Origin: Candidatus Bathyarchaeota archaeon
GTDB taxonomy: Archaea > Thermoproteota > Bathyarchaeia > 40CM-2-53-6
Length of the DNA stretch: 8,692 nucleotides
NCBI GenBank assembly: GCA_005884605.1
Contig: VBBE01000173.1
Coordinates: 1-8,692, forward strand
Direction of reading: 5' to 3'
The notes under the pieces were generated by a model. The model made no database searches, was not told the DNA's origin, and saw only the letters and a program-made list of their open reading frames with translations. Below are positions 569-8,692 of this stretch, in pieces (positions within the stretch are counted from its first letter, which is position 1; each line of letters opens with the position of its first letter). A program made the translations under genes and the position numbers.

Positions 569-919
569 ATGAAAGCTGTAGTCCTAGTCTTGGCTGACAC
601 GGAGACCCATGAGGATCGAGGTCGGATCAGAAATGCTCTGGAGACTGCAAAGGAATTCAAGGATGCGGGAGACGATGTCAAACTGATCTTTGATGGCGCG
701 GGTACAAAATGGATTCCAGAAATCTCAAAGTCAGATAACAAGTATAATGAACTCTACACGGGGTTGAAGGACAGAGCTCTAGCCTGCAAGTACTGCGCCG
801 CGTCTTTCGGTGCTACGAAAGGAATCCAGGATGCTGGAGTTCCTTTGTTGGACGAATACCATGGTCACCCTAGCCTTAGAAAATTGGTATCGCTCGGATA
901 TCAAGTAATCTCGTTCTAG
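569..919 (+). CDS. DsrE-family protein
   Basis: 116 residues, the usual size for stand-alone DsrE/DsrF-like (YchN-fold) proteins. The N-terminal MKAVVLVLADTETHEDRGR is the first beta strand and loop. NALETAKEFKDAGDDVKLIFDG is the typical helix-strand unit. CKYCAASFGA carries the C-x-x-C pair, and the C-terminal part (GVPLLDEYHGHPSLRKL, then GYQVISF) matches archaeal DsrE-type proteins as I know them. Relatives take part in sulfur relay or persulfide handling, but the exact substrate here is unknown and no dsr or tus genes are nearby. ATG 569 was chosen because it starts the first strand directly. GGAGG lies immediately before it, too close to act as a normal ribosome site, so an in-frame TTG at 554 (five extra residues) remains possible. 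The gene appears monocistronic, with its own TATA-like box and a hairpin-containing spacer after it. Confidence 0.85.
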   Translation: MKAVVLVLADTETHEDRGRIRNALETAKEFKDAGDDVKLIFDGAGTKWIPEISKSDNKYNELYTGLKDRALACKYCAASFGATKGIQDAGVPLLDEYHGHPSLRKLVSLGYQVISF

Positions 920-961
920 TCGCTTGCGCAGTCATTTAGGAAGCGTCTTGGAGAGCTAGCC

Positions 962-1001
962 GTGAAGGCTGGCAATTGCGTTTTCCAGCCTCCGCGTTCA
1001 C
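962..1001 (+). repeat. Hairpin after the DsrE-family gene
   Basis: GGCTGG at 967-972 pairs with CCAGCC at 985-990. GTGAA at 962-966 pairs with TTCAC at 997-1001, leaving a six-base bulge on the right arm. It lies 42 bases after the stop codon. There is no T-run behind it, so it may be an RNA processing or 3' UTR element rather than a classic terminator. Confidence 0.4.
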
Positions 1002-1069
1002 CGCTCTTACGGGCTGATGTTAGGCCCAATCCACTTCTCCCCGAGAAAACAATCTCTGGAATGATACCT

Positions 1070-1123
1070 CTAGCGGGTCGTGTAGGCATCTATTTTAGCA
1101 ACGTAGGCCCGATGTTCCGCTAG
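1070..1123 (+). promoter_or_regulatory. Promoter region of the ATPase operon with flanking repeats
   Basis: A TATA-like TCTATTTTA at 1089-1097 predicts a start near 1120, about ten bases before ATG 1130. It is framed by an inverted repeat (CTAGCGG 1070-1076 with CCGCTAG 1117-1123) and a direct repeat GTAGGC (1082-1087 and 1103-1108). The arrangement resembles an operator around a core promoter. This is inferred from position only. Confidence 0.35.
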
Positions 1124-1129
1124 ATAGAG

Positions 1130-1417
1130 ATGGGAAAGAAGGAAGAGCCGAAGGAGCCGAAGAAGCAGAGTGAGGTTTCGAAGGCTGCTAAGGGATTCTT
1201 CTATGGTATGGCTCTGCATGGAATGGTAACCTACGCGTTGAGGCTGAGAATGCACATGGAGAACCTGTTCATGCTCATCACCATGGGCGACATGCTCGGG
1301 ATACCTGTACTACCGCCCTACTACAGCCTCAGGCTCCTACCCTACGCGGTCCCGTCTCTGAAGACATGGAAGCAGACACTGCTCAGAGATCGAGACATTA
1401 CCGACTCACTGTACTAA
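1130..1417 (+). CDS. Small Met-rich, probably membrane-associated protein upstream of ArsA pair
   Basis: 95 residues. The first 22 are highly charged (Lys/Glu-rich, KKEEPKEPKKQ). They are followed by two moderately hydrophobic stretches, about residues 24-40 (FFYGMALHGMVTYALRL) and 45-73 (ENLFMLITMGDMLGIP and onwards). There are seven Met between residues 27 and 55. The C-terminus (LLPYAVPSLKTWKQTLLRDRD) is amphipathic and charged. I do not recognise a named family. The ATPase gene starts 20 bases after the stop, so co-transcription is likely. Met-rich hydrophobic helices are what Get3/TRC40 grooves and SRP54 M domains use or bind, so a role as membrane partner or client of the ATPases is conceivable, but this is speculation. 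The start has no clear Shine-Dalgarno, consistent with a near-leaderless transcript. Confidence 0.7.
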   Translation: MGKKEEPKEPKKQSEVSKAAKGFFYGMALHGMVTYALRLRMHMENLFMLITMGDMLGIPVLPPYYSLRLLPYAVPSLKTWKQTLLRDRDITDSLY

Positions 1418-1437
1418 GGAGCTGTCAACAGACGGCC

Positions 1438-2436
1438 ATGAGCGCTGCGGTCAGCCCAGGCATGGCCGAGTACTTCGCATCCAATCCTGACCTCAGGTAC
1501 ATTCTCTTCGGTGGAAAAGGCGGGCTAGGTAAGACAACCCTATCCGCCGCGACCGCCCACTGGCTAGCGCGAAGAGGAAAGAGGGTCTGTGTCTTTTCGA
1601 CGGATCCCCAGGCGAGCCTCTCGGACATTTTCGAGAGGAAGATCTTCGGCCAGGGAGAGGTCGAACTCGCCTCAAACCTCTATGCTGTTGAGATCGACGC
1701 CGATCGGAGAATCGCAGAGTATCAGGAGGAGATTAGGAACAAGATCAAGGACATGTACAAGATGGAAACGATTCCCGAGGAGGTGGAGGATTACATCAAC
1801 TCGTCCGCCGCGGAACCAGCGATGGCCGAGTCAGCCACGTTCGACGCCATGGTTGAATTGATGACCGCAGGCAAGTTCGACTACTACGTGTTCGACATGA
1901 TGCCGCATGGACACGCAATAAGATTCCTGGGCATGGCCGACATTCTAGACCAGTGGGTCGAGAAGATCGTCACCGTGAGGAAGAAGGCTGGAGAGTACGG
2001 GGAGGCTGCGACTGTTATGGGCAACAAGGGAAGCCTTGTCCAGGAAGATCTCGTCCTGAAAGAGCTAGAGTACATCAGAGGACGACTCGACTTTGTCAGC
2101 ACAATGGTCCGCGACCGAAAACACACCGCGTTCTTCTACGTGCTCATTCCCGAACTAATGCCCATTCTAGACACACGAAAAGCACTGGAGATGTTCAGAG
2201 AGTTCAACGTGACAGTGAGCGGAGTAGTAGTGAATCAAGTATATCCGAAAGAGTTGAAGGACCAGACGGATGTTCCAGGCTTCTTGAAGAACAAGATATC
2301 CTCGCAGCAAGAATACGTTCACCAGATCCAGAATGAGTTCGGGGGCCTCATCAGAGGAATTGTGCCGATGCTTGACCGGGAGCCGAAAGGTCTTCAGATG
2401 ATATCGAAGGTAGCAGACATACTTTACGGGTCCTAA
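1438..2436 (+). CDS. ArsA/Get3-family ATPase, subunit 1
   Basis: 332 residues, single ATPase domain, the length of Get3 rather than of the double-domain bacterial ArsA. The deviant Walker A (P-loop) is GGKGGLGKTT at 25-34, with signature Lys27. Switch I is STDPQASLSD at 54-63 with the catalytic-type Asp56 present. Switch II is FDMMPHGHAIR at 152-162, where the family norm is DTAPTGHTLR. VVVNQVYP (263-270) is the adenine-loop region and MLDREPKGL (311-319) the C-terminal family motif. The only Cys is at 51, so the CxxC zinc motif of Get3 is absent. No arsenic-resistance genes are nearby, so a targeting or unknown membrane role is more likely than arsenite export. An upstream ATG at 1366 would overlap the previous gene by 52 bases, so ATG 1438 is preferred. 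AAGGAG at 1416-1421 is too far away (16 bases) to be a convincing ribosome site. Confidence 0.85.
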   Translation: MSAAVSPGMAEYFASNPDLRYILFGGKGGLGKTTLSAATAHWLARRGKRVCVFSTDPQASLSDIFERKIFGQGEVELASNLYAVEIDADRRIAEYQEEIRNKIKDMYKMETIPEEVEDYINSSAAEPAMAESATFDAMVELMTAGKFDYYVFDMMPHGHAIRFLGMADILDQWVEKIVTVRKKAGEYGEAATVMGNKGSLVQEDLVLKELEYIRGRLDFVSTMVRDRKHTAFFYVLIPELMPILDTRKALEMFREFNVTVSGVVVNQVYPKELKDQTDVPGFLKNKISSQQEYVHQIQNEFGGLIRGIVPMLDREPKGLQMISKVADILYGS

Positions 2437-2441
2437 CGACC

Positions 2442-3464
2442 ATGGAGACAGCGAAGCCCGGCGAGTCATTCCCGTCTTTCGTGTCAGCAAAGAAGGGATT
2501 GAAGTATCTCTTCTTCGGCGGGAAGGGCGGAGTTGGAAAGACAGCACTAGCCGGCGCAACAGCCTACTATCTCTCAGAGATGCTCGGAAAGAAGACGCTA
2601 ATCTCTTCCACCAATCCCGTCCACAGCCTCTCAAGCCTCTTCGGCCAAGACCTCTGGAAGAAAGGGACAAGGAAGATTGAAGGAACAAAAAACCTCTATG
2701 CAGACGAAATAGACATCTCGTCAACCATAGAGAGGTACAAGGGCGAGATCAAGGATCGGCTCGTCCAGTTTCTCAAGTTCGCAGACATCCCAGTTGATGT
2801 TGAACCGTTTATCGAAATCGCCACAACGAATCCTTCCTTCGAGGAATCCGCCATGTTCGACGACATGGTTGATCTGATCCTCAGCGGGCAATATGACGCC
2901 TACGTCTTCGATACAGCACCAGTCGCCCACACCTACAGACTGCTGGGCATGTCAAAGGTCTACAACCTCTGGCTCAACAAGATGATCAAGAGCCGTCAAG
3001 AGTCAATGTCTCTACGCACAAAACTTTCCTTCCGCAAAGAGAAAATAATCCAGGAGCTGAAAAAGGACCCACTGCTAATCTCGCTGGCTGGAACCAAAAA
3101 GAAGACGGAAGAGGCCAGAGAGATCCTTACGGACTCGGAGAAGACCGCATTCTTCTTCGTCACCTTGCCACTCGCCCTCCCTATCGCGGTGATTGAACGG
3201 TTCATCACCTGGGTCCAAGCCTTCCAGATACCCATCGGAGGGGTCATCGTCAACGAAGTCATTCCAAAGATCGATTTGGAAAAACTGTCGCCCTATGTTG
3301 CCCACCGGATGGAAGAACAGGCAGGCTACTTGAGACTGGCTGAACAGAAGTTTCCAGGAATGATACGGGCAGTGCTACCATTGTATGAAAGAGAGGTTAA
3401 CGGCCTGGACATGGTTTCCAGGATGGCCCAAAGCCTGTCTTTAGGCTCAGAATCGAGAATCTGA
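2442..3464 (+). CDS. ArsA/Get3-family ATPase, subunit 2, with Switch I Asp replaced by Asn
   Basis: 340 residues, starting five bases after the stop of subunit 1. The P-loop GGKGGVGKTA is at 26-35. Switch I reads STNPVHSLSS at 56-65. The Asp expected in the family pattern STDPAHNLSD is Asn58 (codon AAT at 2613-2615), and the later Asp is also Ser. Switch II is FDTAPVAHTYR at 156-166, close to the norm but with Gly replaced by Ala162. GGVIVNEVIP (266-275) and LYEREVNGLDM (314-324) are the C-terminal motifs. There are no Cys at all, so no zinc site. In yeast Get3 the equivalent Asp57 is needed for ATP hydrolysis, so this subunit may bind ATP but hydrolyse it poorly. The rest of the fold looks intact, including the helical insert at about 170-230 with many Lys and Arg, so it is not an obvious pseudogene. 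Confidence 0.85.
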   Translation: METAKPGESFPSFVSAKKGLKYLFFGGKGGVGKTALAGATAYYLSEMLGKKTLISSTNPVHSLSSLFGQDLWKKGTRKIEGTKNLYADEIDISSTIERYKGEIKDRLVQFLKFADIPVDVEPFIEIATTNPSFEESAMFDDMVDLILSGQYDAYVFDTAPVAHTYRLLGMSKVYNLWLNKMIKSRQESMSLRTKLSFRKEKIIQELKKDPLLISLAGTKKKTEEAREILTDSEKTAFFFVTLPLALPIAVIERFITWVQAFQIPIGGVIVNEVIPKIDLEKLSPYVAHRMEEQAGYLRLAEQKFPGMIRAVLPLYEREVNGLDMVSRMAQSLSLGSESRI

Positions 3465-3477
3465 ACGGTTTCTCGGC

Positions 3478-3524
3478 TTTTATATCTTATAAAGGCTCAA
3501 AATCATCCGGTATTCTTATATTTT
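3478..3524 (+). promoter_or_regulatory. Two TATA-like boxes upstream of cstA
   Basis: A first AT-rich box lies at 3478-3494 (TTTTATATCTTATAAAG) and a second, CTTATATTTT, at 3515-3524. The second predicts a start near 3545, so transcripts would have a leader of about 10 bases before TTG 3554. The first would give a longer leader of about 40 bases. The short T-run inside the first box could also help terminate the ATPase operon. Confidence 0.5.
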
Positions 3525-3553
3525 CACCGCCCAGACGCACTACATGATCATCG

Positions 3554-5386
3554 TTGTATGAATCGCTCATAGTAATGCTGAGCGGCATCATCGTCTACGG
3601 GATCGTCTACCAGTTCTATGTGAAATGGTTCGACCGGAGCGTCGTCCAGTCCGACCCCAACCGTCCCACACCAGCCCACACCTACCTAGATGGTGTCGAG
3701 TTCTTCCCATCAAACAAGTACGTCATGCTAGGCTGGCACTGGAAGAGCATCGCCGCCCTAGGACCCGTAACCGGTCCCGCCCTAGCAATAGTCTGGGGAT
3801 GGCTGCCCGGATTCCTCTGGATCCTGATCGGTAACTCGCTGCTCGGCTGGCTGCACGATTACAACTCGATGATGACATCAGTCAGGAGCGAGGGAGCCTC
3901 GCTAGGACCCCTCACTTACCAGATAATAGGAAAACGAGCCAGGCGGGTCCTAGTAGCGTTCCTCGCCTTCTATTCCATCCTGATTTTCGCCGCATTCCTC
4001 GGCGCTCTCCTACCAATCGTCAAGAACCAGGCATTCGTAGGCGCGTCAGCAATAGTCGCGTTCATGATCATCGCTGTAATTGGCGTCGCCTCAGGATATG
4101 CAATATTCAAGGCCAAGATCAACGTAGTTGCAGTGACGATCGCGTCACTGGTTGGAGTCGCCCTAACGGTCTATCTGAGCACCGCAGTATTCGGCTCCGC
4201 GATTGGAACAGCCTTCACAAGTGCAATCCCTGACCCGCAACTCCAGGAGGACGTGCTCCTAGCTTCAATGCTGGTCTTTAGCATACTCGGCGCAGTCCTC
4301 CCGCTCTGGAGCTTTGCAATGCCGATAAACTATCTCGGATTCTACGTCGCCTACTTCGTTGTAGGCGCGATCGTTGCTAGCTCCTTCATCGCGCCCCAGA
4401 CGTTCACCTCTCCCATGTTCACAAATTGGTTTTCGCCCGTCGCTATCGGAGCGGGAACCGGACTCATCAACAACGTCGCCTTTCCCTTGTGGCCTCTGCT
4501 GTTCGTGACGATCGCGTGCGGAGCCTGTTCCGGCTGGCACGGGCTCATCGGATCCTCCCTCTCGTCAAAACAGCTCGACACCGAATCGGACGCCCACTTC
4601 GTGGGCGGTGGCGGGATGCTTCTCGAAGGCGTCCTAGGACTCACCTCGGTCGTGGCAGTCGCTGCTCTCACGAGCAAGACCGGATGCGCAGGATCACTAG
4701 GCCTCTACGTTTGCGGAGGCGCTCAATATCTCGGAACATTCGGAATAGGATCCCTAGTTGGGAAGGGGATCATGGCTCTGATGGTCATCATCCTCGGACT
4801 AACATTGACTCAACTGGCTTTGCGGTTTGCGAGACTCGCAATATCCGAGATGGTCAAACTGCCCGCCCTGAAGAATGTCTACGTCACATCCATCATCGTG
4901 TCCATCATCACGTTCGTATTAACAAGCTCCCGGTTTGGAGCTCCTTGGGGATTCATCTGGACACTCTTCGGAGGGTCCAACCAACTTCTCGCGGGCGTTA
5001 CGCTCCTCGTCGCAACCCTATGGCTGACAAAGTCAAGACGTAGAGGTATCTTCACTGGCATACCTGCAATATTCATGCTAGTCACCACTATTGCCGCCCT
5101 AGGCTACACGGCCTACGCCACCCTGGACATTGCTCTCACCACGAACATCGCGACGTCTGCCACCCGTGCATACGGCAGCGCAGTTGCTGGGGTCATCGCA
5201 ATCATCCTGACCGCGCTGGGACTAGTACTCTCCTACGATGGCTTCAAGGCCTACCGGGGAATAAGAAGCGGCCTAGCAAGCACTCCCTCAATCTCGACAG
5301 GAATATCGCGGGCCTCCCCCTCTGACAACAAAGAGCCGACAAAATCAGCAGCACCGAGAAGTCCCGAAGATTTCAGCACCACGTAG
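3554..5386 (+). CDS. cstA: CstA-family carbon starvation / pyruvate-peptide transporter
   Basis: 610 residues and strongly hydrophobic, within the usual CstA range of about 500-700. Family landmarks in order are: an N-terminal membrane helix (about 4-22); RPTPAHTYLDGVEFFPSNK (37-55); GWHWKSIAALGPVTGPALA (60-78, normally GHHF-x-SIAG-x-GPI-x-GPA); WGWLPGFLWILIG (81-93); HDYNSMMTSVRSEGASLG (101-118); CGACSGWHGLIGSSLSSKQ (from Cys322); and FGGSNQLLAG (472-481). The last ~45 residues are a Ser/Pro-rich hydrophilic tail. CstA proteins import peptides or pyruvate during carbon limitation, in the cytoplasmic membrane. Substrate is not decidable here. TTG 3554 keeps the whole first helix, while the next in-frame ATG (3575) would cut into it. 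A five-codon ORF from ATG 3544 overlaps this start in another frame. TTTTT at 5396-5400 may terminate transcription. Confidence 0.9.
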   Translation: MYESLIVMLSGIIVYGIVYQFYVKWFDRSVVQSDPNRPTPAHTYLDGVEFFPSNKYVMLGWHWKSIAALGPVTGPALAIVWGWLPGFLWILIGNSLLGWLHDYNSMMTSVRSEGASLGPLTYQIIGKRARRVLVAFLAFYSILIFAAFLGALLPIVKNQAFVGASAIVAFMIIAVIGVASGYAIFKAKINVVAVTIASLVGVALTVYLSTAVFGSAIGTAFTSAIPDPQLQEDVLLASMLVFSILGAVLPLWSFAMPINYLGFYVAYFVVGAIVASSFIAPQTFTSPMFTNWFSPVAIGAGTGLINNVAFPLWPLLFVTIACGACSGWHGLIGSSLSSKQLDTESDAHFVGGGGMLLEGVLGLTSVVAVAALTSKTGCAGSLGLYVCGGAQYLGTFGIGSLVGKGIMALMVIILGLTLTQLALRFARLAISEMVKLPALKNVYVTSIIVSIITFVLTSSRFGAPWGFIWTLFGGSNQLLAGVTLLVATLWLTKSRRRGIFTGIPAIFMLVTTIAALGYTAYATLDIALTTNIATSATRAYGSAVAGVIAIILTALGLVLSYDGFKAYRGIRSGLASTPSISTGISRASPSDNKEPTKSAAPRSPEDFSTT

Positions 5387-5394
5387 AAAGATCT

Positions 5395-5401
5395 GTTTTT
5401 C
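5395..5401 (+). terminator. T5 run after cstA
   Basis: GTTTTTC at 5395-5401 begins nine bases after the cstA stop. T-runs alone can terminate archaeal RNA polymerase. If it is leaky, the next gene (51 bases after the cstA stop and without a clear TATA box) would be co-transcribed. Confidence 0.3.
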
Positions 5402-5437
5402 TAGACCAAGGACGAACTAGATTCCCAGTGGGTACTC

Positions 5438-6076
5438 ATGGCTTTAACTGACGTCGAGATCGTCGCAATCCTAGCAGTCGCCCTCATCATCACCTACTTT
5501 ATCGGAACATACTGGAAGCACAGAATCCTCAAACGATATGCCCATTGGTTCGAGGACAAATTCTCCCGGACGGCTAAAGTTCGTTACAAATCGTTTGGAC
5601 ATGCGGGCCTCAGAATAAAGTGTGAAATGAACAATCCATCCGACGGGTACAAAGAGCTAGAATTCGCCCTCTCACTCGGTGCGAGAGAGAATCTAGTCTA
5701 CTATCCGTACAAACTGGTCGCGAGGGACTCTGACAAACTAAACTGCTGGGCTACCCTGACTGACCCAGTCAAGTTCCAAGTTGAGATCACGAGGCAGAGA
5801 AAGAAAGCGAAACTCACCTGGGAGACAGCCGGCACTGAGGAAGTCAAGATCCCCCAACTCAGCGAGTTGGGCTACAAGGTCTATTCAAAGGGCCCAGATT
5901 TTGCGAACCGACTCGTCGAGAGGAGCGGCGTAGTCGCCAAACTCAAAGACCTAGACACTGTTGATTCTCTGGAGCTTGAGGAGGAACCGTCGAGGCTCCA
6001 CCTCGTAGCGAGTCTGAGCATGGACGATCTGCCTAAGCTGATCGACCTTATCTCTCTGGTCGGAAGATCTGTCTAA
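5438..6076 (+). CDS. Uncharacterised single-pass membrane protein
   Basis: 212 residues. One clear membrane segment spans residues 6-26 (VEIVAILAVALIITYFIGTYW), followed by a basic stretch (KHRILKRY), so the N-terminus probably lies outside and the roughly 185-residue remainder in the cytoplasm. That domain is mixed alpha/beta with alternating hydrophobic strands (AKVRYKSFGHAGLRIKCEM, then LEFALSLGARENLVYYPYK) and an acidic-then-helical C-terminus (LHLVASLSMDDLPKLIDLI). I do not recognise the family. ATG 5438 is the first plausible start, and no Shine-Dalgarno is visible. It follows cstA by 51 bases on the same strand with no obvious promoter between them, so it may act with the transporter, but nothing in its sequence proves this. 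Its stop codon overlaps that of the convergent gene. Confidence 0.75.
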   Translation: MALTDVEIVAILAVALIITYFIGTYWKHRILKRYAHWFEDKFSRTAKVRYKSFGHAGLRIKCEMNNPSDGYKELEFALSLGARENLVYYPYKLVARDSDKLNCWATLTDPVKFQVEITRQRKKAKLTWETAGTEEVKIPQLSELGYKVYSKGPDFANRLVERSGVVAKLKDLDTVDSLELEEEPSRLHLVASLSMDDLPKLIDLISLVGRSV

Positions 6077-6483
6077 CGAGAAACCCGGGTCGACGCCAAC
6101 GGGCCGGAACGCTCCAAGGTTTCCAATATCTTCGCTCTCAGCTCCTCGTAGCTCGGAAATCTGTTGAAGACCTTACTCCCATGAATCAACACGCACGGAG
6201 TCCTCAGGATTCGATGCCTTATCGACAACCACACACCCTGAGGGGATGCCGAGTCCACGGGATCCAACAGCACCAAATCACCGAACTCTGCCTTGAGCTT
6301 CTGCGCCACCTCTGAGAGCTGGAAATACTGTTTCTTGACATCCTCCGGATAGTCTTCCAGCTGTTCCGAGTAGGGAGACATGCCCGTCGCGTGCATGACC
6401 TCCATGCAGTGTTGACAGTGGGCAAATAGTGTGGGCATGATGCCGACAAAAGTAACCGTCAGGGGACGACGCGTCTTTGGCAA
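6073..6483 (-). CDS. Thioredoxin-fold protein with CxxC motif
   Basis: 136 residues. The first strand PLTVTFVGIMPTLFAHC leads into CQHC (Cys23, Cys26), the position of the thioredoxin-fold redox motif. Later LVLLDPVDSA is a central strand and RTPCVLIHG (94-102) has the cis-proline pattern (Pro96) opposite the active site. A helix (SYEELRAKILETLER) follows, completing a glutaredoxin/thioredoxin-like unit. A 35-residue insertion after the CxxC helix (about 36-66) is unusual for a minimal thioredoxin. No signal peptide is seen, so it is probably cytosolic: a thiol oxidoreductase, or possibly a metal binder. TTG 6483 is chosen because the only nearby ATG (codon 16) would delete the first strand. 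It overlaps the convergent gene by four bases. Confidence 0.75.
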   Translation of the reverse strand: MPKTRRPLTVTFVGIMPTLFAHCQHCMEVMHATGMSPYSEQLEDYPEDVKKQYFQLSEVAQKLKAEFGDLVLLDPVDSASPQGVWLSIRHRILRTPCVLIHGSKVFNRFPSYEELRAKILETLERSGPLASTRVSR

Positions 6484-8045: not shown

Positions 8046-8692
8046 CTACTTGCTGGTCACTGCAACAGTTGCCGTGATGGTGTGGCTTGTTGTTCCGCTT
8101 GTTCCTGTTATCGTGACAGTGTAGGTCCCGCTGTTCGTGGCTCGCGTTGAGGTAATGGTTAGGCTGGTTGTGCCAGTCGGGTTTGCGGCTGTCAACGTTA
8201 CGCTATTGATAGGCGAGAGTACTGGCGGATGCTTGTTGGCGGGTTGGGTTGTTGCGGATAGGTTGATAGTGCCTGTGAATCCGCTAATGGCCGTTACGGT
8301 TATCGTGAGAGTTGTCGTGGAGCCTTTGGCCATTACGACGGATGCTGGGCTGACGGCGAGCTGGAAGTCAGGTGCCTGGATCGTGATGGTCTTCGACGCG
8401 ACATGCGTCGTCTGGTACGGGCTCTCATAATGGATCACTCCGGTGATGGTGTACGACCCGGGCGGGACGGGCTGGCCTTGCTGGTTGACCTGTTTCCAGT
8501 CGAGCATTCCCACGGTCAGTGTCTGGCCGGGCTGGATGGTGATGACGGTTATGACCTGGGCGCAGGGCGCGAACGGAGGCGGTACGTTTGTGTAGACTAT
8601 GTTGCCGGTGGAGTTGGTGATCTGGAACTGGAACCCGCTGCATGAGTCTCTGAATGTGAATGTTGCGGGCTGGGTTCCCCGGTTTGTCGCGT
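8046..8692 (-). CDS. Secreted protein with BsuPI-like and Ig-like domains, C-terminal part (5' end outside window)
   Basis: The frame is open from the right edge (first whole codon at 8690) to TAG 8046-8048, giving 214 residues. The first ~95 follow the BsuPI (intracellular proteinase inhibitor-like) pattern: FTFRDSCSGFQFQITNSTGN, then TIQPGQTLTVGMLDWKQ, then PVPPGSYTITGVIHYES. The remaining ~110 form an Ig-like (BIG/invasin-type) beta domain, starting DFQLAVSPASVVMAKGSTT, with ISGFTGTINLSAT and the closing NSGTYTVTITGTSG. Repeats of this kind are common in exported archaeal surface proteins. The gene probably starts well upstream of 8692 with a signal peptide and perhaps more Ig repeats. Two Cys (SCSGF and PCAQV) could form a disulfide outside the cell. 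An internal GTG at 8513 is not a start, since the conserved domain runs through it. Confidence 0.75.
   Translation of the reverse strand, partial: ATNRGTQPATFTFRDSCSGFQFQITNSTGNIVYTNVPPPFAPCAQVITVITIQPGQTLTVGMLDWKQVNQQGQPVPPGSYTITGVIHYESPYQTTHVASKTITIQAPDFQLAVSPASVVMAKGSTTTLTITVTAISGFTGTINLSATTQPANKHPPVLSPINSVTLTAANPTGTTSLTITSTRATNSGTYTVTITGTSGTTSHTITATVAVTSK

Follow-up and report, generated by a model that had tools for sequence, protein, structure and literature searches.

Get3 is a homodimer, and its family includes bacterial ArsA, in which two related ATPase units are fused. We describe here a pair of adjacent genes, S1 and S2, each encoding a single-domain ATPase of the ArsA/Get3 superfamily, in which the catalytic Switch I aspartate is kept in one member and replaced by asparagine in the other. 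The genes lie in a stretch of 8,692 nucleotides from a Candidatus Bathyarchaeota archaeon (assembly GCA_005884605.1, contig VBBE01000173.1; the whole stretch is hereafter the window). The closest described relatives are the Cst-associated ArsAs of Castillo and Saier (2010), who reported ArsA homologues in operons with CstA, CstX and CstY, proposed that they energize CstA, and noted co-evolution of CstA, CstX and ArsA (PMC2963123). Like S1 and S2, these proteins (clusters 14-18) consist of a single domain of about 330 residues and are encoded with CstA, CstX and sometimes CstY, and cluster 15 holds adjacent pairs from Pyrobaculum arsenaticum (31% identical) and Symbiobacterium thermophilum (25%). 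Both the operon and adjacent pairs of this kind are therefore already known from that source; in the portions of it available to us, however, neither member of a pair is singled out as carrying Asn, the term heterodimer is not used, and the proteins are said to be ones that "may function as homodimers". What the present analysis adds is the fixed Asp/Asn division, the S1 and S2 clades and their phylum-wide spread. Among the matches listed, we came across no publication on cory-CC-star proteins or on CstA, ArsA and CstX that describes a fixed asymmetric pair; of those listed for the latter three, the 2010 paper alone deals with the topic.

The consequences of such a substitution are known from better-studied relatives. 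The catalytic aspartate of yeast Get3 is D57, in switch I (PMC10248533); the residue positions the water that attacks ATP (PMC10248533, PMC12506534), and the D57N protein binds ATP and does not hydrolyze it (PMC12506534). Asn also occupies both Switch I positions in entry 9nbo of L. ferriphilum ArsA, which is deposited as closed with MgATP and which we infer to be an engineered trap. The same chain has Asp in 9nbl, 9nbm and 9nbw, two of which are open with MgADP, while 9nbw is closed with MgATP at 1.5 minutes. S1 and S2 share the fold, family cut-off, P-loop and A-loop Asn of Get3/TRC40, and the nearest solved single-domain chains are the Get3 proteins of M. jannaschii and M. thermautotrophicus; they differ from Get3 in being two genes, in having no CXXC motif, and in the Asn of S2 at the catalytic Asp position. 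Two Get3-like genes in one operon are also known from mycobacteria (BagA/BagB, Rv3679-Rv3680; PMC10597346), and structure entry 6bs3 is titled 'Get3-like A and B', but S1 and S2 score far below the corresponding models (56 and 39 of 400 bits for BagA, 33 and 21 of 521 for BagB).

The two genes and their diagnostic motifs are located as follows.

1438..2436, + strand: S1, ArsA/Get3-family ATPase with the Switch I Asp, 332 residues (PF02374, E 1.9e-70; TIGR00345)
1510..1536, + strand: deviant Walker A of S1, GGKGGLGKT, with the signature Lys retained (44/44 S1 rows that have the residue; 46 rows in total)
1603..1605, + strand: catalytic Asp56 in Switch I of S1, codon GAT, within FSTDPQASL
1894..1914, + strand: Switch II of S1, DMMPHGH (DTAPTGH in Get3)
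2442..3464, + strand: S2, ArsA/Get3-family ATPase whose Switch I Asp is replaced by Asn, 340 residues (PF02374, E 4.5e-62; TIGR00345)
2517..2543, + strand: deviant Walker A of S2, GGKGGVGKT, with the signature and Walker Lys retained (both in 47/47 S2 rows that have the residue; 50 rows in total)
2613..2615, + strand: Asn58 of S2, codon AAT, within SSTNPVHSL, at the Switch I Asp position
2910..2930, + strand: Switch II of S2, DTAPVAH (D-[TMC]-AAVAN in distant S2 proteins)

Membership of both proteins in the superfamily is clear from scores of 237.9 (S1) and 210.5 bits (S2) against PF02374, where the cut-off is 24.3, and of 232.8 and 207.2 bits against TIGR00345, where it is 135. The original prediction, made from the window alone, described adjacent single-domain paralogues five bases apart, and this description holds: 5 bases separate the stop of S1 from the ATG of S2 at 2442 (6 bases in L001, L002, L004 and L006), and the two proteins are 33% identical over 331 columns (E 5e-57). 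The open reading frame of S1 begins mechanically at 1366; its start was set at the ATG at 1438 because the preceding gene ends at 1417 and relatives (e.g. L001) start at the equivalent of 1438. The window is close to soil Bathyarchaeia: S2 has a counterpart with 99% identity in locus L006, and genome G001 has a contig with the same genes as L006. G001, which is 92% complete, has 6 PF02374 matches, and only those in S1 and S2 cover the whole domain.

In M. jannaschii Get3, the Asp of STDPAHSL is the counterpart of both Asp56 of S1 and Asn58 of S2, and Asn58 is, as had been proposed, the change that abolishes hydrolysis in yeast Get3 D57N (PMC12506534). When each window protein was aligned with the best 120 homologues listed, Asn was present in 121/121 S2 rows and Asp in 120 S1 rows, the remaining S1 row being truncated at that position. 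A search started from a distant S2 protein gave Asn in 119/119 rows with the residue (best 120 listed), including one labelled Anaerolineae bacterium (P0301). This set is separate from the first S2 set, since Switch II is DTAAVAN in all 120 of its listed members and DTAPVAH throughout the other. The three protein searches returned 8000, 7857 and 7562 matches, and fixation holds for the 120 best listed of each. In fetched loci, with the window included and near-identical contigs counted once, Asp was found in 45/45 S1 rows, Asn in 47/47 S2 rows and Asp in 50/50 rows of other family members; the totals are 46, 50 and 51 rows, of which 1, 3 and 1 lack a residue there, and the last group includes two Alicyclobacillus split genes together with ArsA/Get3 genes of unrelated context. 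Among S2 relatives the Asn codon is AAC in 31 and AAT in 22 of 53 rows (duplicates included), and both being in use, the residue is kept while its codon drifts. None of the S2 rows examined carries Asp, the counts show that the substitution is not a matter of chance, and the asymmetry is thus confirmed in a stronger form than first stated.

A second asymmetry, absent from the original prediction, lies in Switch II, where S1 has DMMPHGH and S2 has DTAPVAH; the M. jannaschii Get3 sequence is DTAPTGH. All 46 S1 rows fit the pattern D-M-[MP]-P-[HFC]-G-H (DMPPFGH in 30, DMMPHGH in 15, DMPPCGH in 1) and none is DTAPTGH, while the Switch II Asp, Pro, Gly and His are kept along with the Switch I Asp. 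The 50 S2 rows comprise DTAPVAH (17), DTAAVAN (14), DMAAVAN (12), DCAAVAN (6) and a partial AAVAN (1), so that the Pro and His are gone in 33/50. The signature and Walker Lys are present in S1 and S2 in every fetched row that has the residue. These motifs suggest that S2 can bind ATP but has lost features needed for catalysis, and that S1 can catalyze, in an unusual way. As a separate observation, 19/51 of the other rows have DTAPAGG rather than DTAPTGH; these are single ArsA-family genes (L044, L046, L048-L059 and others), mostly from the class of the window.

The pair is widely but patchily inherited. ArsA-family matches were found in 35/151 genomes of the window's class, Bathyarchaeia, with S1 and S2 together in 12 and fragments at contig edges in two more (G014, G083), and in 101/398 genomes of the phylum, Thermoproteota, with both types in 32 and S1 at a contig end in G374. 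Class matches were fetched from 32 of the 35 genomes (all but G006, G063 and G114), and for the phylum from all 32 genomes with adjacent matches and some others. Taking class and phylum together, 44 genomes have either type and 41, across 16 family codes, have both; the lone copies in G374, G083 and G014 are at contig ends, as are those of S2 in loci L009 and L010. Separate occurrence of the two genes, which would have told against the original prediction, was thus not seen. In G126 and G473 the pair is spread over two contigs, and wherever a single contig carries both genes they share a strand, with S1 upstream. With mechanical start codons, S1-S2 gaps mostly range from a 53-base overlap to a separation of 15 bases. 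Beyond that range fall G340 (an overlap of 139), G261 (188, with a shortened S2 reading frame) and G297 (393, with a broken S1). Gaps were classed without the pairs of L027, L114 and L116, whose coordinates come from locus listings. Loci L001-L006 were taken as repeats of contigs of G074, G086, G083, G098, G126 and G001; they were retained in gap, co-occurrence, codon and CXXC counts and excluded from residue counts in fetched loci, from CstA and cory linkage, and from the comparison of identities. In the last of these, pairwise identities of S1 and S2 correlated with r 0.95 over 41 pairs, a value reached in 0/2000 permutations, although much of this correlation would be expected from shared species history alone.

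Trees place S1 and S2 as sisters. In a careful tree of 52 rows, S1 (17 rows; support 100/99) and S2 (17 rows; 100/100) form sister clades at 99/96, and Cst-associated single-gene proteins branch next to them with weak support (82/79). A quick tree of 131 rows, built without near copies, fragments and rows under 250 residues, put S1 and S2 each on one side of a branch with one D/N change, without settling the S1+S2 fork; in it the same loci, from patchily distributed genomes, recur in corresponding sub-clades of S1 and S2. Both trees have long branches and midpoint rooting only. A cory match accompanies 12 single-gene relatives on the sequence fetched for them; 10 of these are archaeal, and two come from Cytobacillus and Paracoccus plasmids. 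All 12 carry Asp, and a CstA match is present on the same sequence in 11, the other (L123) lying at a contig start. The most economical account is that a single Asp-bearing ATPase in a CstA operon was duplicated once and that S2 then underwent one D-to-N change.

The genes surrounding the pair point to the same operon context. On the + strand the order is DsrE-like gene, small protein (95 residues), S1, S2, CstA-family carrier and 212-residue protein, followed on the - strand by a 136-residue CXXC protein. The immediate partners are listed below.

1130..1417, + strand: CstX / cory-CC-star-like small protein, 95 residues, directly upstream of S1 (NF041419, 32 bits)
3554..5386, + strand: CstA-family carrier, start codon uncertain (PF02554, E 8.1e-94)
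5438..6076, + strand: CstY-like protein, 212 residues, one N-terminal hydrophobic stretch (hydropathy maximum 2.33 from residue 6)

In 29/30 loci with at least 2.5 kb on both sides, CstA is found no farther than 2.5 kb from the pair; the exception is G321. A cory gene is within 500 bases in 30/30 of these flanked loci, and at most 60 bases upstream in 41/42 loci with at least 400 bases upstream, the exception being G220. The small protein of the window scores below the 80-bit cut-off of NF041419 and is at most a distant relative of the cory-CC-star family; across the phylum sample 49/398 genomes match that model at E 0.01 or better and 0/398 reach the cut-off. Its correspondence to CstX (about 90 residues; PMC2963123) rests on size, on place, and on the cory-CC-star label in the L133 and L135 plasmid records. 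It is predicted to form a two-helix hairpin, with a mean predicted local distance difference test score (pLDDT) of 81 and a predicted template modelling score (pTM) of 0.52. A small partner for CstA has precedent, since E. coli CstA, a pyruvate importer, needs the small protein YbdD (PMC5847655). The 212-residue protein, a relative of which occurs within 4 kb in 13/30 flanked loci, matches the description of CstY (about 210 residues, one transmembrane segment; PMC2963123), and is called CstY-like on that description only. At a lax limit Pfam named no family for the small, 212-residue or 136-residue proteins, and no sequence relative of the window CstA was found among solved structures.

Our favored interpretation, to which we assign a probability of about 0.6 on sequence evidence, is that S1 and S2 form an obligate asymmetric heterodimer in which S1 hydrolyzes ATP, S2 holds ATP, and CstX couples the cycle to CstA. 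The residues and their fixation in the rows examined, the gene linkage and the common ancestry are established here; heterodimerization, the dead S2 site and the coupling to CstA are what we infer from several lines of evidence: Asn is fixed in S2 and Asp in S1 and other family members, with Lys kept in both; gene order is fixed, spacing tight (mostly from a few bases of overlap to 15 apart), and the sister clades are separated by one D/N change; identities correlate, CstA is a near-constant neighbor, D57N Get3 and 9nbo behave as described above, and co-evolution of CstA, CstX and ArsA has been reported. On this model S1 and S2 would have arisen by duplication of a single ArsA-like ATPase of a CstA-CstX(-CstY) operon. 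The signature Lys of each subunit would reach the nucleotide of its partner; the S1 site, with Asp56, would hydrolyze ATP, and the S2 site, which has Asn58 and whose Switch II is stripped in distant relatives, would bind ATP without hydrolyzing it and so serve to hold the nucleotide or to support the structure. The dimer would open and close with one hydrolysis per cycle, and CstX would relay that cycle to CstA for regulation, assembly or energization. The pair is thus probably a one-sided molecular switch for a CstA-type transporter. The original suggestion of one active and one ATP-holding subunit in a heterodimer is accordingly plausible, and the residue tests agree with its view that the pair would be neither a standard ArsA nor a homodimeric Get3.

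Several observations weigh against this interpretation. S1 is interrupted while S2 is intact in G220 (by TAG; L096:2984-3981) and G297 (by a frame change; L142:3784-4786), which may reflect sequencing error or decay. A structure model of S1 read through into S2 had a pTM of 0.48 and no ArsA-like packing (root mean square deviation about 20 Å over both halves), and is of low confidence. The activity of S1 is assumed, its Switch II being altered too. In G321, the 11 kb of fetched sequence showed no CstA. The carrier family can work without such an ATPase, since E. coli CstA functions with YbdD and the E. coli genome has no ArsA-family match at E 1e-15. Hyperthermus butylicus is reported to have CstA and CstY without ArsA (PMC2963123).

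We would extend the model only tentatively to a natural 'half-dead' ArsA/Get3 machine operating across the phylum, in which S2 would clamp ATP permanently, S1 would be the sole motor, and docking through CstX would make CstA ATP-gated or ATP-energized. If this is true, the D-to-N exchange by which Get3 is trapped on ATP in the laboratory (and, judging from 9nbo, ArsA likewise) has become fixed by evolution in one subunit. The two ATP sites of ArsA and Get3 are equal or fused, which makes the contribution of each hard to separate; in S1/S2, with two genes and one site altered, each site can be mutated alone. The pair also offers a sharp handle on the 2010 proposal that ArsA-like ATPases drive CstA carriers; if that proposal holds, a secondary carrier has gained an ATP subunit by a route unlike that of ABC transporters.

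Among the alternatives, it is possible but unlikely that S1 and S2 form two separate homodimers, S1 being the working ATPase and S2 an ATP-sensing or decoy homodimer that regulates it. Such an arrangement would resemble that of Get3 and the one suggested for Cst-associated ArsAs; strict co-inheritance, fixed order, tight spacing and matching sub-clades fit a single complex better. We are more doubtful that the dimer is a Get3-like targeting factor that delivers CstX, CstY or CstA to the membrane as a hydrophobic client. Archaeal Get3 proteins are the nearest solved single-domain relatives, and a hydrophobic stretch is clear in the 212-residue neighbor (2.33) and weak in the small one (1.36), but the zinc CXXC is present in 0/50 S1 and 0/56 S2 rows (duplicates and truncated rows included), and the hydrophobic stretch of the 212-residue protein is N-terminal, not a tail anchor. 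Hydropathy medians of the client-binding region do not discriminate (S1 0.55, S2 0.65, other members 0.60, M. jannaschii Get3 0.51). We give little credence to reversed or equal roles, with S2 active through another residue and S1 impaired by its changed Switch II. The departure of S1 from DTAPTGH in 46/46 rows would fit this, yet S1 retains the Switch I Asp and four Switch II residues noted above, whereas S2 is without the Switch I Asp in all rows with the residue and without the Switch II Pro and His in two-thirds of its rows (33/50).

Bacterial ArsA resembles the proposed heterodimer in that two ATPase units, related but not identical, work together in one machine (for S1/S2 an assumption) and in energizing a carrier, an analogous role. 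E. coli ArsA differs: its halves, each with Asp, are fused in a single chain, and three of its cysteines are important in the arsenite pump (PMC2963123), whereas S1 and S2 are separate, asymmetric and without ars partners. The view, part of the original prediction, that these are the halves of ArsA as separate genes did not hold up: in the tree S1 and S2 are each other's sisters, and their neighbors are CstA-associated single-domain ArsAs. A split arsenite pump ATPase is accordingly rejected as highly improbable, even though both proteins belong to the family and such splits exist, because the two proteins have a single Cys between them (residue 51 of S1), the seven window genes scanned (581 to 6483) contain no ars gene apart from these ATPases, Asp is present in both halves of the E. 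coli, C. reinhardtii and L. ferriphilum (9nbl) ArsA chains and in both genes of a real split pair, and S1 and S2 together branch away from that pair in the tree. That split pair, on an Alicyclobacillus plasmid (L132:4995-6780), likewise consists of two adjacent single-domain ArsA genes; both have Asp and DTAPTGH, and they differ from S1/S2 in adjoining arsD and an arsenic transporter and in branching elsewhere.

Many loci have a second cory gene, either after S2 or before the first cory gene (L097:6623-6883, L099:6512-6772, L112:3834-4139 and others), and several of the second proteins end in Val-His. An Arg-Cys-Cys C-terminus is found in two bacterial cory-CC-star proteins (L133:4652-4909, L135:4657-4908) and in E. 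coli YbdD (L156:3683-3880), all of them small CstA neighbors. Homology is not claimed, since no alignment was found between YbdD and the Cytobacillus (L133) protein; the shared ending may reflect convergence or very old kinship.

The remaining genes of the window are as follows.

554-919, + strand: DsrE-like gene, upstream of the module
6073-6483, - strand: 136-residue protein with a CXXC motif (CQHC)
8046-8690, - strand: open reading frame, open at the window end, Thr/Ser-rich, like a secreted or surface protein

The 136-residue protein may belong to the module, since relatives occur within 2.5 kb of the pair in 9/30 flanked loci. It has seven weak matches to solved structures, one a probable thioredoxin (E 0.12), and we take its CQHC motif to be perhaps thioredoxin-like. 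Among the fetched loci, the DsrE-like gene has a relative only in the window and its nearest kin, L006/G001.

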